Part shown: positions 5,373 through 26,313 of the stretch, piece after piece
Layout of the letters: every line of letters begins with the position of its first letter
Position numbering within the stretch: the first letter of the stretch is position 1
Assembly (NCBI GenBank): GCA_001509345.1
Contig: LGGM01000007.1
Span: forward strand, 1 to 44,111
Length of the DNA stretch: 44,111 nt
Direction of reading: 5' to 3'
From: Clostridiales bacterium 38_11
GTDB taxonomy: Bacteria; Bacillota; Clostridia; Tissierellales; Dethiosulfatibacteraceae
The notes under the pieces: model-generated
Seen by the model: only the letters and a program-made list of their open reading frames with translations
What the model was told of the DNA's origin: nothing
Databases searched by the model: none
Program-made: the position numbers and the translations under genes

Positions 5373-6003
5373 TTAAAGCAGCCCCATTTCCAAGATTGTA
5401 TTGAAAGGATAGAACTCCACAAGGGCAACCCTTTCAACCGTTACCTCCATTGTTTCAAAATCTCTGCTTAGTATTTCCATTCCTTTGATATGCATATCAA
5501 TCTCATTGTTTAGAATCATAGTACAGTGAGGTACCCATATTTTGGGTTTGTAATGACCCCAATAAAACTTTCGAATTCCTTGTTTTTTTATTTCACTATA
5601 AAGAGTGCTCTGAATGCTCAATAATCTCACTGACGGCTTGGGACACAGAAAAGTAACTCTCTCTTCACCGGGAAATACGCCAATACTGTTGAATATCAGT
5701 TCAAATTTTTTGACGCCACTGAAGATTGAGTGAACAACATCTTTCAATTTTTTGATATCTTCCATTTCAGAATAATAAACCGCTAAAGATATGTGGGGCC
5801 GTCCACCCTTCAGGTGCATAAAGTCACCACCGCCATGATCATATAACAGTTTCCAATAGTTTCTGATTTTTTCCTCGCTGTCCTTATCAAAAAGAATTAT
5901 CCAGGGACTCTACAGTGCTTATCTCCCACTTATAGAAGTGGGAGTCTTAGCACTGTTAGTCATCGGATACATTCATTATAACATCAATGGAAAGGATTTT
6001 CAT
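5373..6003 (-). pseudogene. 2H phosphoesterase (2'-5' RNA ligase-like) gene interrupted by a 68-bp element
   Basis: The C-terminal 148 codons (5373-5819) encode a 2H phosphoesterase-like domain with both histidine motifs, HISLAV (from PHISLAV) and HCTMIL (from PHCTMIL); such proteins act on cyclic phosphates or 2'-5' linkages of nucleic acids. The homologous frame continues upstream as ILFDKDSEEKIRNYWKLLYDHGGGDF with no start codon, then meets stops inside the repeat at 5898-5969. Removing the repeat with one copy of the flanking TA restores one frame, ATG AAT GTA ATT CTT TTT GAT, and a further in-frame ATG exists at 6003. The gene was therefore intact before insertion. A shortened protein from the internal ATG at 5819 would still hold both His motifs. 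Confidence 0.8.
5898..5969. mobile_element. 68-bp palindromic miniature element, copy 1 (TA-flanked)
   Basis: TA, 68 bp beginning TCCAGGGACTCTACAGTGC and ending CACTGTTAGTCATCGGA, then TA. The element is nearly one long imperfect hairpin whose core is CCCACTT-ATAG-AAGTGGG, with outer arms CAGTGC/GCACTG and TATCC/GGATA. A second copy at 25415-25486 is identical at 65 of 68 positions and sits in the same orientation, also between TA and TA. No transposase gene is present. It could be a Tc1/mariner/IS630-type MITE (TA duplication) or an IS200/IS605-derived palindromic element with the TA belonging to one end; the restored frame is the same under both. Confidence 0.85.
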
Positions 6004-6025: not shown

Positions 6026-7204
6026 TCAACAATCTTCTGCTTCTGTCGCAACGAAATTGTTTTTCTTTAATATACCAATAGCATGGGCTAGATTTTTTTC
6101 ACTGACTAGAATGATAGGTCCGGTGCATCCCATGCCACTCTCAGCGTATACCGCTTTCTGCCAAAGCACTTGAACAGCGGATTCCAGATCCATAATATCA
6201 ATTCCTGATATTTGTCCGGTAACCACTTCTTTAACAGGCATTGTAATCTGTTTTTCTGATTTCACAGTCTCTTTGGTGAGATCATTGATAATATTTTCCA
6301 AGCCTGCATCTCTTGCTTTTTTAAATTCTTCTTTAGTCTTAACTGTTAATCCACCTTTAACCAGTTTTGCCGCATATCTTATGGCATTGGTAACTACTGG
6401 CACACCTGAAGCCCTTGACAGGATCAGGATTATTTTGTCGTAGTTTTCACCGATACCAGGTCCGTAGCCATCACCTGATGATTCATAATTGCCACCAGTA
6501 GTAAATGACGAAAGCATCTTCATCATGAGATTGCCGGTCAGCGTATCGGTCACCATGACATCAGAAGACCCAGACAGCAGATCGTTTCCTCTCATGACGC
6601 AGCCACCTTCAGCTCTAGCTGATTCGCCAAAATTGATCTTATAGCCATTCGCACTAAGTTTTTTAAGGGCTGACTCCACCTGTCTGCTGCCATCAAGATT
6701 GAGAATACCCACTGATGGGTTCTCTATGCCCATTGCCTTGGCAGTGATAATGCCATACAGTGTATTTTTAATCATTGCTTCCACTCGATTGGTAGAGGCT
6801 GTCCCGGTTGTGGTTGCCAAATAGATATCTCTTCCCAATCCGGGTGTGATGGCTTTGCCAACTGTTGCAACGCCAATTGGAAAAGTGTAATGCATGGTGA
6901 TACAGGCGTCAATCTCGTCTGTTTCAAGTAGCTCTTCCATTTTTCTATGCATATCATCTTCCGTATAGGACTCAGCAATCTCCAAGGCAGTATCCACTTT
7001 GGGCCCAATAAGAACAACTTTTAAGTCTTTGTTTTCCTTTTGCGCCTTCTCAGCACCCTTGATGACATTCTCGACACCGTGCTCACTGCCGAGTGTTGTG
7101 ATTCCAATCCTTGATTGGCTGCCGAATTGTCCGGAATCGATGGCTTCTCCAATTTCAAGAAAGATCTCACCTATCATGTTTTTAGTTTCTTTCAACTTAT
7201 CCAT
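6026..7204 (-). CDS. grdD: Glycine reductase complex component C, alpha subunit GrdD
   Basis: A 392-residue PlsX-like protein that, with GrdC, accepts the carboxymethyl group from protein A and releases acetyl phosphate. The phosphotransacetylase/PlsX-like fold is indicated by ITTLGSEHGVENVIKGAE near the start, LGRDIYLATTTGTASTNR and the glycine-rich TGGNYESSGDGYGPG (~237-250). Cysteines conserved in GrdD are placed at 101 (DACITMHYTFP) and 360 (ESGMGCTGPI). The ATG at 7204 follows GGAGGC; an upstream in-frame codon would overlap grdC and lacks a ribosome site. It is the last grd gene and starts just after the grdC stop. No clear terminator follows. Confidence 0.96.
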   Translation of the reverse strand: MDKLKETKNMIGEIFLEIGEAIDSGQFGSQSRIGITTLGSEHGVENVIKGAEKAQKENKDLKVVLIGPKVDTALEIAESYTEDDMHRKMEELLETDEIDACITMHYTFPIGVATVGKAITPGLGRDIYLATTTGTASTNRVEAMIKNTLYGIITAKAMGIENPSVGILNLDGSRQVESALKKLSANGYKINFGESARAEGGCVMRGNDLLSGSSDVMVTDTLTGNLMMKMLSSFTTGGNYESSGDGYGPGIGENYDKIILILSRASGVPVVTNAIRYAAKLVKGGLTVKTKEEFKKARDAGLENIINDLTKETVKSEKQITMPVKEVVTGQISGIDIMDLESAVQVLWQKAVYAESGMGCTGPIILVSEKNLAHAIGILKKNNFVATEAEDC

Positions 7205-7205
7205 C

Positions 7206-8750
7206 TTAAGCCTCCAACTCATTTATCAGCTTGGAGCCAAACTCTCTCATAGCTTCCGCTATCAATTTCTTTATTTCCTGCTTGGATACTGTTGCTTCCT
7301 CTTGCTTTTTACTGTTCTGCTCCAAGATTACCGAGACGCCATCAAATAGATTTGTCATTCTAGCAAGGAACAGGCTGCCTTTTCCGACAATCATGGCACG
7401 CTTGATGTACCCCGCTACAAGTTCCTCTCTGGCGAAACCGACATAGGGAACGCCTGATGGTATATGTCCCTGGGTAGGAGCCCAGCCTTGCATACCATGC
7501 TTCTTGACAAAATTCATCAGATCACTTTTGTCCATCTCACCTCTCTTGACAGCAAGTGCTCCTATCATTTTGTAGTTTGATTGAGGAACATCTCCAGCTC
7601 CTGCAGGTTTAGTAACATCAGGATTTTGCATCTCAACGGAATATTTATCCACGTCTGTTATTTTCATATTCCCTTTGTCAAGAGGCATAGTGACCAATGC
7701 AGTTATGACAGCTTGTGGAGAAGATCCCGTACCCACATTATGTTTGCCCACCAGATCATTTCGGATGATAGGATTGATCCCATCATTCTCGCTGACCAGT
7801 ATGCCAAAGCCTCCAATTACGTCCTCAAGGATTGGCATGCCCTTCTTGACATGATCCTTGCCGTTCATTCCCAGTTTTGCAATTGCTCCACCTGCAACAA
7901 TTGCAACATTCTTGTAAACTCCTGCCTGCACCAACGCCGATGCTTGTATCAAGGCGTGAGTTGGTGCCGCACAAAATCCTCTAATATCAGATCCAGAAGC
8001 ATTGATAGCACCTGCAATCTCGGCTATAGCCTTCGCAAAATTGCCGCCACCTCTTTGATTCATGTCTCCACAAGCCTCTTCCGAGCACTCTATGACATAA
8101 TCTATTTCTTGGATTCCAATTTCAACATTATTAATCAGGTGCTTTAACGCCAGAACACCTGAGGCTTTTGACACGATATTCTCGAACATGATATGTGCCG
8201 TTAGATTGGCATCTAAATCATGGGCCTTCTTGACACACCCTACCAGCTTGCCCTCGTTGTAAATCCCTTCACCATGGTGTTCATTAACTTCCTTTTGAAT
8301 CGCCGTAATATCAGAGCCTTCTTTTATCGTAGATGAATACTGTTCTCCAAACAAGGGATGCTTTGCCAATTTTTCTTTAACTGTTTCTGAAAAATCCTTA
8401 TCAAGCATAACTAAATCAAAGGAATCTGACAGTTTCATCAGTCCAACAAATTCATCTTGAGGCATTATCTCTCCGAATTTTCCAAATCTTTCCCTTATTC
8501 TGACATCTTTATCATACCAAGGCATCTCCAGTGTTTCCAACTCTTCAGGTTTCATGTTGCCGATGTAAACTTGGCTAGGCGCGTAATTCAAGACCTGTTC
8601 ATAGGTCCTTATATGAGTGCCTATTGCCTTGATGTACTCTGAATCTGGATTAGCCGTTTTTTCCATAGTTTGTGTGGTTCCGTTGTGGATAATCATATCC
8701 GGTGTATTCACCAGAATATAGCTTGTTCCTTTCACGACCGAATAATTCAT
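7206..8750 (-). CDS. grdC: Glycine reductase complex component C, beta subunit GrdC
   Basis: A 514-residue thiolase-fold (FabH-like) protein. In glycine reductase the acetyl group formed from the Se-carboxymethyl-protein A is held as a thioester on component C and phosphorolysed to acetyl phosphate. The FabH-like core is in the second half, with the probable acyl-carrying Cys260 in IRGFCAAPTHALIQ, preceded by IECSEEACGDMNQRGGGNFAKAIAEIAGA. The N-terminal ~150 residues are the family-specific region. The ATG at 8750 follows CGGAGGATAAA. grdD begins one base after its stop. Confidence 0.97.
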   Translation of the reverse strand: MNYSVVKGTSYILVNTPDMIIHNGTTQTMEKTANPDSEYIKAIGTHIRTYEQVLNYAPSQVYIGNMKPEELETLEMPWYDKDVRIRERFGKFGEIMPQDEFVGLMKLSDSFDLVMLDKDFSETVKEKLAKHPLFGEQYSSTIKEGSDITAIQKEVNEHHGEGIYNEGKLVGCVKKAHDLDANLTAHIMFENIVSKASGVLALKHLINNVEIGIQEIDYVIECSEEACGDMNQRGGGNFAKAIAEIAGAINASGSDIRGFCAAPTHALIQASALVQAGVYKNVAIVAGGAIAKLGMNGKDHVKKGMPILEDVIGGFGILVSENDGINPIIRNDLVGKHNVGTGSSPQAVITALVTMPLDKGNMKITDVDKYSVEMQNPDVTKPAGAGDVPQSNYKMIGALAVKRGEMDKSDLMNFVKKHGMQGWAPTQGHIPSGVPYVGFAREELVAGYIKRAMIVGKGSLFLARMTNLFDGVSVILEQNSKKQEEATVSKQEIKKLIAEAMREFGSKLINELEA

Positions 8751-9677: not shown

Positions 9678-10985
9678 TTATTCAAATACTGTCTGGTCGG
9701 TTATCTCAGTTTCAAGAGCTTTTAAAGCCTTTTCAACCAGTCCTCTTCTCAGTGATTTCTCTTCCTGGGCATTCAGGGAAGGATTCCCTAGAGGATGTGG
9801 TATGGCTACTGTTGGCACAATTCTATTTGCTCCTACAGTTTTGGATATTGGAACGATGGTACACATATGAACAACAGGAATACCTGCTCTTTCTATTTCT
9901 TTCACCATAGTTGCACCGCAACGTGTACAGGTGCCTCAGGTGGAGGTGAGTATTACTGCCTGCACATCATTTGAGATTAGGTCTTTTGCTATTTCAGCCG
10001 CAAAAGCTTTGGCATTGGCTACAGATGTTCCATTCCCTGTTGTGGCATAGAAGAAGTTGAACAGTTCTCCGATTCTCCCTTCCTTTTCCATGTCTCTGAG
10101 GACGTCAACAGGTATGACCCTGTCGGAGTCCAGATTGGCAAAGGTCGGGTCATAACCACCATGAGCGGTTTCATGATCCTGATCAGTTAGATCTCTGAAC
10201 TTACTGATATCATATTTTCCATATTTAGAAGCACTTGATGATTCTATATGATCGGGATTTCCTTTAGGCACTATGCCTCCTGATGTGACAATTGCAATCT
10301 TAGTTTGGGACATGTCTTTAATGGCCGGATTCGGATTTACACGGTCAAAAGTTGGCATAGCAAATTCTGTTGTGAATGGATCTTTTTTCATCTTCTGAAT
10401 TAGCATATCAATGGCTCTATGAGAGCCTCGCTTATCTGCAAAATAATTTTTTCTGAATCCTCTTTTTAGATAGCCTTCTTCTTGAGGGGTTAGGATCTCT
10501 TCGCTTTTCAACAGTTTCAATCCCAAAGACACCATTTTTTTAATGGCATTTCTCATATCTACCGCGCTGTTTTTTGTCTCTATCAGATAAATGGATTTCT
10601 TGTACAGATCGACTCCCGGGTTTTCGAGGTACATACCAGACAATGCCTTTACACCTAGACTATTCTGAACTGATGACGCTATATCACCACATGCAACACC
10701 ATATCTGCCTGCATTGAAAGCAGGTCCTGCAACAAATAAATCAGGACTGCACTGCTTGACCATTCCCAGTATGGTTTCTCTGGCTTTTTCCATATTCTCG
10801 TTGTAAAAGGAATCACCACAGACAATAGTAGCTACAATCTCAGCCTGCTCACCAAATGCCGCTTGAAACGCAAGTCCAGGTCCAACTGCGCCTTTTATTG
10901 CTTCAGGCATATGATCCGCTTTTTCTTCACCACCAATTCCCGCATAAAACTGGTTAATATAATGCACTACTTTGAATTTCGCCAT
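9678..10985 (-). CDS. grdB: Glycine reductase selenoprotein B, large subunit GrdB, Sec350
   Basis: A 435-residue selenoprotein. With GrdE it forms the substrate-specific protein B, whose selenocysteine takes up the glycine-derived carboxymethyl group. The frame runs from ATG 10985 (AGGGGTAAG upstream), starting MAKFKVVHYINQFYAGIGGEEKA, through an in-frame TGA at 9936-9938 (codon 350) in LTSTUGTCTRCGATMVKEIERAG, to the stop at 9678. UGTC is the expected redox-type Sec-x-x-Cys motif. Without recoding it would look like two ORFs of 349 and 76 residues. The next codons can form a short hairpin (9914-9935). Confidence 0.97.
9914..9938 (-). promoter_or_regulatory. UGA plus candidate bacterial SECIS hairpin of grdB
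   Basis: Directly after the UGA, GCACC and GGTGC form a 5-bp stem around a 12-base loop, at the place where a bacterial SECIS element must lie to recruit SelB. The stem is short; a longer fold of ~38 bases downstream of the UGA should be computed. Confidence 0.5.
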
Positions 10986-12738: not shown

Positions 12739-12906
12739 CTGTTATTGACCTGAGAGATTCTTCGATTGCTCGCTTTGCTCCTTCGGTGCTGCGCTTTCCA
12801 GAGTACTGTCCATAAACGGTCCTTTTGCCTGAGATCATCACTTTTTTTCGGTGAAAAAAACTTAATCCTTCGGCGTCGTAATTTAATACGATCTCTCCCG
12901 CATACT
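12739..12906 (-). ncRNA. Tandem glycine riboswitch (gcvT RNA motif)
   Basis: The minus strand shows the conserved blocks twice. Aptamer 1 (~12906-12818) has GCGGGAGAGATC, GACGCCGAAGGA and ATCTCAGGCAAAAGGACC. After a short linker, aptamer 2 (~12815-12740) has GGACAGTACTCTGGAAAG, GCACCGAAGGAGCAA and AATCTCTCAGGTCAATAACAGGG. Two aptamers followed by one expression platform is the classical cooperative glycine riboswitch. Placed ahead of grdX and a terminator, it should raise grd operon transcription when glycine is plentiful. Confidence 0.95.
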
Positions 12907-12940
12907 TCAACCATCTTTATTTAGTTTTATGTTCATCTAC

Positions 12941-12969: not shown

Positions 12970-13119
12970 CGTTTTTCTCGGATTAATTATGACTAAATTC
13001 TTGTATTCTGTTAAATTTAATAATTTTAACGCCTTATATTTTTTATTCCTTAAACCCTCATATTGTATGTACTTTTATGAATACTATGATATAATTGAGA
13101 TGTAAAATGAATTGATTAC

Positions 13120-13226
13120 AAATTAGCAAACTCAATGAAAGTTGAGGACGCAAAGTTGTGAGTCTAGGATATTGTACATTTCTTGTTTAAACCGCTGAAT
13201 ATCCAATATTATGACTGTCTAACTGC
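13120..13226 (+). ncRNA. Cyclic di-GMP-I riboswitch (GEMM-I)
   Basis: The core reads GCAAAC, a CTCAAT-GAAA-GTTGAG hairpin with the required GNRA tetraloop, GGACGCAAAG, then GTCTA, a long hairpin closed by GGATATT/AATATCC, and TATGACTG as the tetraloop-receptor side. These match the c-di-GMP class I consensus. A TATAAT box at 13090-13095 supplies the promoter; its -35 is unclear. TTAG/CTAA closing bases overlap the start of the downstream terminator by two bases, so the direction of control is not obvious. It lies upstream of a secreted surface protein, a common c-di-GMP target. Confidence 0.82.
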
Positions 13227-13244
13227 ATTGAGGCAGTTTTTTTT
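13221..13244 (+). terminator. Terminator of the c-di-GMP riboswitch
   Basis: AACTGC and GCAGTT form a 6-bp stem (loop ATTGAG) followed by a run of T residues. It directly abuts the aptamer, as expected for transcriptional control. Confidence 0.8.
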
Positions 13245-25366: not shown

Positions 25367-25414
25367 AATTTCACCTTTTATTTCTTATTTTTAATCAACA
25401 GGGTTCTAAACCGT

Positions 25415-25486
25415 TATCCAGGGACTCTACAGTGCTTATCTCTCACTTATGGCAGTGGGAGTCTTAGCACTGTTAGTCATCGGATA
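25415..25486. mobile_element. 68-bp palindromic miniature element, copy 2 (TA-flanked)
   Basis: Same element as at 5898-5969, three differences in 68 bases, flanked by TA on both sides and in the same orientation. The differences are C/T in the core stem and two in the loop (ATAGAAG to ATGGCAG). It lies across the 3' end of the pirin gene and supplies its present stop codon. Without it the pirin frame would read NNGTFNGLEPC and stop. Confidence 0.85.
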
Positions 25487-26313
25487 AACGTACCATTGTT
25501 ATAATCATCAAACGCCTGTCTTAGATCTTCTGCAGTGCTCATCACAATAGGTCCTCCCCAATGAATTGGCTCGTTGATTGGTTCACTGGAAAACAGCAAT
25601 ACTTTCGCATCTGATTTACCTGCAATCTCTACCAAATTTCCTTCTCCCAGAATGACAGCGTGAAAGCACTCGATTTCTTTTTCATCTTCGGGTATAAAAA
25701 TACTACCTTGGTATACATACAGAATAACTTTTTTATCATCTACATTATATTTGAAAACAGTGCCTTTTTTCAAAGAGATATCAAAAAAGTCGCATTCCAC
25801 TATCAGATCTTGTACAGGTCCGGTGGCTTCCATATATTTGCCAGCCAGAACCTTCACCATAATGCCATTTTTTAGGTAGACCTCAGGTATTTCCTTAGAT
25901 TTGACCTCTCTATAACGAGGATCCATCATTTTTTCAGACGTAGGTAAATTGACCCAAAGCTGAAAACCAGCCATTCCATCTGATCCTCCCTGAGGCATCT
26001 CCTGATGAATAATACCGTTGCCTGCAGTCATCCACTGAATATCACCAGTTTTTATTATACCGGCATTCCCCATACTATCCCCATGTTCCACTGAGCCTTT
26101 TAGCATATAGGTAACAGTCTCTATTCCTCTGTGCGGATGCCAGGGAAAGCCTGCCATATAGTCATCAGGGTTGTCAGAACCAAAATGATCCAACAGTAAA
26201 AATGGATCAAAATCCGGTATTTCATTGTAGCCGAAAACCCGTCTCAATTTAACCCCCGCACCATCCAATGTAGGTTGTGCTTTAACAATTCTTTTAATTT
26301 TTTTTATTTTCAA
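25477..26313 (-). CDS. Pirin family protein
   Basis: A 278-residue bicupin of the pirin family; characterised members are iron proteins with quercetinase or regulatory roles. The N-terminal cupin holds the metal ligands in DPFLLLDHFG and PWHPHRGIETVTYMLKGSVEHGDSMG, and MTAGNGIIHQEMP. The start is most likely the TTG at 26313, eight bases after AAGGGG; an upstream GTG overlaps that site. The last codons, ATC CGA TGA, lie within the inserted 68-bp element, so the C-terminus now ends NNGTFIR. It precedes the Fe-ADH gene in the same direction, with the element between them. Confidence 0.9.
   Translation of the reverse strand: MKIKKIKRIVKAQPTLDGAGVKLRRVFGYNEIPDFDPFLLLDHFGSDNPDDYMAGFPWHPHRGIETVTYMLKGSVEHGDSMGNAGIIKTGDIQWMTAGNGIIHQEMPQGGSDGMAGFQLWVNLPTSEKMMDPRYREVKSKEIPEVYLKNGIMVKVLAGKYMEATGPVQDLIVECDFFDISLKKGTVFKYNVDDKKVILYVYQGSIFIPEDEKEIECFHAVILGEGNLVEIAGKSDAKVLLFSSEPINEPIHWGGPIVMSTAEDLRQAFDDYNNGTFIR

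Follow-up and report, generated by a model that had tools for sequence, protein, structure and literature searches.

Insertion sequences of the IS200/IS605 type, such as ISDra2 and IS608, insert 3' of a fixed tetra- or pentanucleotide that flanks the left end, and carry subterminal hairpins, which are bound by IS200-type enzymes (PMC6006769). ISDra2, for example, inserts 3' of TTGAT without target duplication (PMC8612924). The palindrome-associated transposable element (PATE) has been defined beside them (PMC3119063), and the PATEs of Haloquadratum, like an element of Halanaerobium made up of IS605 ends only, are short, lack terminal inverted repeats and have palindromes near both termini; they cause no target duplication and contain no gene, and some of their copies have lost parts of the core (PMC3119063, PMC7290912). 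All of these traits recur in a 129-bp element found in the 44,111-nucleotide stretch of Clostridiales bacterium 38_11 analyzed here (the window) and in related genomes. Like ISDra2 and IS608, it lies 3' of a fixed pentanucleotide, here TTTAT, and its own right end resembles that target (TTGAT/TTTAT). Unlike the IS200/IS605 elements it has no tnpA or tnpB inside, and its transposase was not found; unlike the PATEs it has no identified IS605 with the same full ends, its fold is conserved over several families of an order, and some of its relatives carry nested hairpin modules. With a probability of about 0.85, what survives in the window as a palindrome is the left half of an old insertion of this element, which behaves as a non-autonomous palindrome-associated element of the IS200/IS605 type.

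The palindrome, strong and imperfect, lies at 5897-5969 of the window, and its predicted DNA fold of -20.5 kcal/mol compares with a shuffle mean of -5.2 (z -8.25; 0 of 200 shuffles as good), which bears out the palindrome of the original prediction. The bounds given there, a 68-bp unit between duplicated TAs, have to be redrawn. When aligned with the family consensus and with a copy in the congener G001 (locus L031, 1510-1579), and bounded by means of empty sites and a nested insertion, the palindrome corresponds to nt 1-70 of the 129-bp element, at 5897-5966 on the minus strand. This remnant comprises the left end CCGATGACTA, a left hairpin ACAGTGC...GCACTGT and an inner stem CTCCCACTT/AAGTGGGAG, followed by CCTGGATAA. 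One of the two TAs belongs to the host pentanucleotide at 5967-5971 (minus strand), which is TGTAT at this copy and TTTAT in the family consensus (flank statistics, 58 copies), and the other to a conserved internal GGATAA of the element; the host TAT and this motif pair as TTATCC/GGATAA. The window copy is an incomplete member, because most copies in the genome continue leftward with a second conserved palindrome. The full unit reads CCGATGACTAACAG...CCTGTTGAT on the minus strand of the window, encodes no protein and, at 129 bp, is too short for a transposase.

Copies were compared in three congener genomes, all of them drafts: G000, the window's own genome (1.88 Mb, 156 contigs), G001 and G002. 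Further copies, for which the original prediction had proposed a search, are plentiful: a second one lies in the window and dozens more in G000, where the palindrome stretch has 38 whole or partial matches and the full unit 53, fragments included. In G001 the full unit gave 40 scored full or near-full copies from 136 first-look candidates. Exact matches to the left end number 22 in G000, 70 in G001 and 10 in G002, counts that are lower bounds on copy number (at least 22 in G000 and at least 70 in G001). The second window copy is 96% identical to the palindrome stretch at 25414-25486; as an element it spans 90 bp (25394-25483, minus strand), has a 39-bp internal deletion in its right-end hairpin and adjoins the host target TTTAT at 25484-25488 on the minus strand, and its TGA terminates the adjoining ORF at 25477. 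Internal losses are seen elsewhere too, the left palindrome being gone from L015/L109 in G001 and the right one mostly gone from L009 and L012. Full copies are 85-98% identical within G000 and 88-100% within G001, and the last activity was therefore not necessarily recent. At four G001 loci (L184, L208, L044 and L088), full copies follow tandem 35-bp left-end pieces that end in CACTTCTAT or CACTTTTAT, as if an element had inserted into the TTTAT-like hairpin loop of an older copy and the rest of that copy had then been lost.

The boundaries of the element rest on G000-specific copies set against their empty orthologous sites, and on one insertion of the element into itself. Left end first, and with ^ marking each junction, the arrangement is host ...TTTAT^CCGATGACTAACAG...CCTGTTGAT^host. 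At L011/L107, for instance, the empty site ACTTTAT^AATC corresponds to the filled site ACTTTAT^CCGATG...CTTGTTGAT^AATT, and further empty and filled loci are L016/L105, L014/L103 and L104, L002/L101 and L005/L111; target-site duplication is absent from five such comparisons. The pre-insertion sequence at L090 in G001 is known because one copy sits within the loop of another (...CACTTCTAT^CCGATG...129 bp...CTGTTGAT^AAGTGGGAG...), again without duplication. The target is TTTAT, loosely TTNAT: among 58 distinct left flanks, 27 have TTTAT, 97% carry T at -1 and 84% carry A at -2, and the information content is 1-1.8 bits at positions -1 to -5 and at background beyond -5. The right end of the element, whose own terminus reads TT(G/A)AT, is GAT or AAT in 56 of 57 cases and is followed by a base without strong preference. 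Each half of the element contains one hairpin domain in the consensus fold, and the two ends, CCGATG and CTGTTGAT, do not form an inverted repeat.

Since the element causes no duplication, follows a fixed 5' target that its right end resembles, contains no gene and bears hairpins close to both ends, its behavior is PATE-like and has the "peel-and-paste" signature of IS200/IS605. A Y1/HUH-type transposase acting in trans would have cut it out and reinserted it as single-stranded DNA. That it is a non-autonomous mobile element, as had been proposed, is supported. Copies of the IS605 type with TnpA have the core left hairpin CTCCCA..TTCTATAAGTGGGAG at their left end as well, in G016 and G030 and, more loosely, in G004. 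The likeness to these IS605 ends is confined to this hairpin, and no insertion sequence with both CCGATG and TTGAT ends was found. The internal GGATAA, being the reverse complement of TTAT^CC, may recognize the target by pairing; this guide idea is weak, because some relatives in G044 carry GGATTGG in place of GGATAA yet still follow TTTAT.

The wider family was explored with a covariance model (R1) built from 22 copies, which gave full-length matches in G044, G016, G142, G043 and G056, in other families of the order. Of 249 genomes, 9 contain the left-end pattern, and a reversed control gave two chance hits over all genomes; the match at L185 in G043 covers the left end only and may be due to chance, and the copy in G096 is a weak one. 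Of the pairs in the fold, 89.8% are kept across 23 copies, in an alignment fitted to the model and thus favoring the fold, and pairing drops to 30-45% when the structure is slid along the sequence. Compensatory change affects 21 of 38 pairs, altered on both sides; such cells number 95, whereas shuffles give 33.7 and none of 500 reaches as many. Relatives in the other families mostly end in TTTAT, not TTGAT. Some copies in G016, G044 and G056 contain extra hairpins (AAGTAGATAGCCAAAATCTATGATTTTGTGCTAGTCACTTA and variants, or of the AAGTAGATAGCCAAAATC..GATTTTGTGCTAGTCACTTA type) at two different internal points (L190, L194-L196, L204, L209-L211, L213, L217, L218, L220, L224 and L226-L230), and G044 copies reach 309 nt, apparently with modules within modules. 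Such nesting is reminiscent of BOX elements (PMC3049150) and of the PATEs of Haloquadratum, into which small repeats insert (PMC3119063). In Rfam no match over the element reached the gathering threshold, and a permissive search of five loci gave only sub-threshold, chance-level matches. G032 has another dispersed repeat with several hairpins (L033, L042, L046, L050 and L054), about 110 nt long and in more than 20 copies, which ends in TTATCA and has in common with the element the core hairpin CTCCCACTTATAGAAGTGGGAG and a hairpin TTCAGATGGAG..CTCCACCTGAA. A bolder reading, unlikely as a whole, would make of all this a so far undescribed family of single-strand elements, modular and conserved in structure, scattered patchily over several families of one order; an enzyme other than a recognizable Y1 transposase would mobilize them, the internal GGATAA guide would set their target and smaller hairpin modules would colonize them recursively.

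The conserved fold with its compensatory changes and the nested optional modules in G016 and G044 also speak for an alternative, in which the element would be a BOX-like modular repeat with an unrelated transposase and would act mainly as a transcribed structured RNA (a regulator, terminator or processing site) and not be a transposon relic. BOX elements of Streptococcus likewise lie scattered between genes as hairpin repeats, may contain internal modules and insert into one another. The orientation of the copies points the same way: of 55 sites with an upstream neighbor, 38 have it transcribed in the left-to-right direction of the element, and the element lies between two genes that run in its own direction at 24 sites and between two opposed ones at 7 (p = 0.003; ORF heuristic). 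However, lagging-strand insertion with co-oriented genes also predicts this bias, which is thus compatible with both. The copies include lineage-specific insertions at non-orthologous sites, and BOX has target-site duplications and terminal inverted repeats (PMC3049150), whereas the 129-bp element has neither, and we regard this alternative as unlikely.

Against a relic of the IS200/IS605 type it counts that no autonomous transposon with the ends of the element was found. Searches with PF01797/IS200 gave no Y1 transposase in G001; this genome also has no detectable REP-associated tyrosine transposase (RAYT), despite at least 70 left ends. An intact IS200-type TnpA is absent from G000, G001 and G002. 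In G000 there is a single REP-type Y1 gene, distant from all copies, and a degenerate IS200 pseudogene (C54), which was rejected as a source since its flanks are unlike the element. Phages, plasmids and IMG/VR were searched as carriers without a match. The simplest reading is that the transposase has been lost or is unassembled. The several hairpins seen in G032 and G023 had suggested a TnpB guide RNA (omega/reRNA), which was rejected: G000 and G001 have no TnpB (PF07282), and the TnpB loci of G002 lack an element-like 3' end.

Spread by a RAYT, which is also a Y1/HUH enzyme, would make the element a REP/REPIN-like repeat. REPs, too, are extragenic hairpins present in dozens of copies, and two of the three congeners, G000 and G002, carry RAYT-type genes (NF047646). 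However, no copy of the element lies in the RAYT loci L056, L057 and L059, the genome richest in copies is G001, without a detectable RAYT, and the consensus is an asymmetric 129-bp unit that lacks the GT[AG]G at the hairpin feet of canonical REPs (PMC6006769). This origin is improbable, and RAYTs were rejected as mobilizers for want of any association with the copies. The REP-type tyrosine transposase genes at L057 (contig C1 of G000) and L059 (contig C235 of G002) share the same neighborhood in the two species, which suggests vertical inheritance, and no repeat copies were detected around them.

Of the two sources offered by the original prediction, the IS200/IS605 palindrome thus fits (no duplication, fixed 5' target, subterminal hairpins), but the other, in which the 68-bp palindrome would be a MITE of a TA-targeting DDE transposon (Tc1/mariner/IS630), was rejected on the empty sites and is scarcely credible: TA does flank the palindrome, but intact copies reach 59 bp further, no TA is duplicated at empty sites or in the self-insertion, and the two ends are not mutual inverted repeats.

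The history of the locus can be read from the same relatives. The gene beside the remnant, for a 2H phosphoesterase of the 2'-5' RNA ligase superfamily (PF13563, E=2.3e-13), has lost its original start and occupies 5373-5819 on the minus strand. Its first remaining in-frame ATG, at 5819, would give a protein of 148 aa that keeps both H-x-S/T motifs, and the frame is open as far as the remnant. The window protein matches a 186-aa frame in G001 from residue 13, and outgroup proteins match from residue 2-3. Upstream of the element lie the TATAAT that is the likely -10 box of the gene (5975-5980, minus strand), read directly in the window, L031 and L146 and conserved in G001 and G002, and the gene for the alpha-subunit of glycine/sarcosine/betaine reductase component C (6026-7222, minus strand; NF040747, 571.9 bits), a syntenic anchor that is the same neighbor in G001 and G002. 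In L031 of G001, whose flanks are 82-83% identical to the window, the full 129-bp element stands at 1510-1638 between the reductase gene and an intact 2H phosphoesterase gene; in L146 of G002 the same two genes adjoin without the element. The insertion point falls between TATAAT and the Shine-Dalgarno GGAAAGGA with ATG GGT TAT TCT. When the window was compared with L031, the aligned segments (HSPs) ended at L031 1579 and 1678, and with the upstream sequences compared as well this sets a deletion junction at 5896-5897: the window is without 98 bp that are present in G001, namely element nt 71-129 and 39 bp holding the Shine-Dalgarno, the ATG and the first six codons of the gene. The real start in G001 and the outgroups, ATG GGT TAT TCT (MGYSVELLFD), is thus deleted in the window. 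The simplest history puts the insertion between the divergence of G002 and the later parting of G000 and G001; in the G000 lineage the right half of the element was then lost along with the Shine-Dalgarno and start codon. The gene is probably now silent or shortened.

This history replaces the clean and recent insertion into the start of the gene that had been proposed, with the pre-insertion frame recoverable by splicing to ATG AAT GTA ATT CTT TTT GAT. The arithmetic of the splice is correct, but it recovers no earlier frame, and its ATG, which also lies upstream of the element in G001, is not the start of the gene. In G001 the full element stands upstream of the gene, and the window has undergone the later deletion; because the full element is at the same position there and the window has lost 98 bp, the spliced MNVILFD frame is accidental and the insertion old. 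An orthologous copy in a relative had itself been named as evidence against recent movement. That the window is ancestral and the longer G001 start derived, as the open MNVILFD frame would allow, is refuted by the outgroups and is exceedingly improbable, since the proteins of G002, G003 and G004 have the G001-type start (E)RIF.MGY.VELLFD.

Other features were observed nearby. An inverted repeat is formed by AAAATCCTTTC(C/T)ATTGAT upstream of the -10 box (window 5980-6003) and, in G001, ATCAATGGAAAGGATTTT over the Shine-Dalgarno (L031 about 1639); it is also partly present in G002 and is possibly an operator, or chance. Elsewhere in the window, a glycine riboswitch (12807-12910, minus strand), a c-di-GMP-I riboswitch (13115-13230, plus strand) and a SECIS_4 element (9898-9935, minus strand), all at Rfam gathering scores, are fitting for a glycine-reductase gene cluster.

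The locus itself is ordinary, and what seemed a clean insertion scar is an older insertion followed by a deletion, visible only through a close relative. For the family, a genome that has at least 70 copies and lacks the transposase presents a concrete and testable gap, and the repeat, which is without a match in Rfam, now has exact ends, a target and a covariance model.
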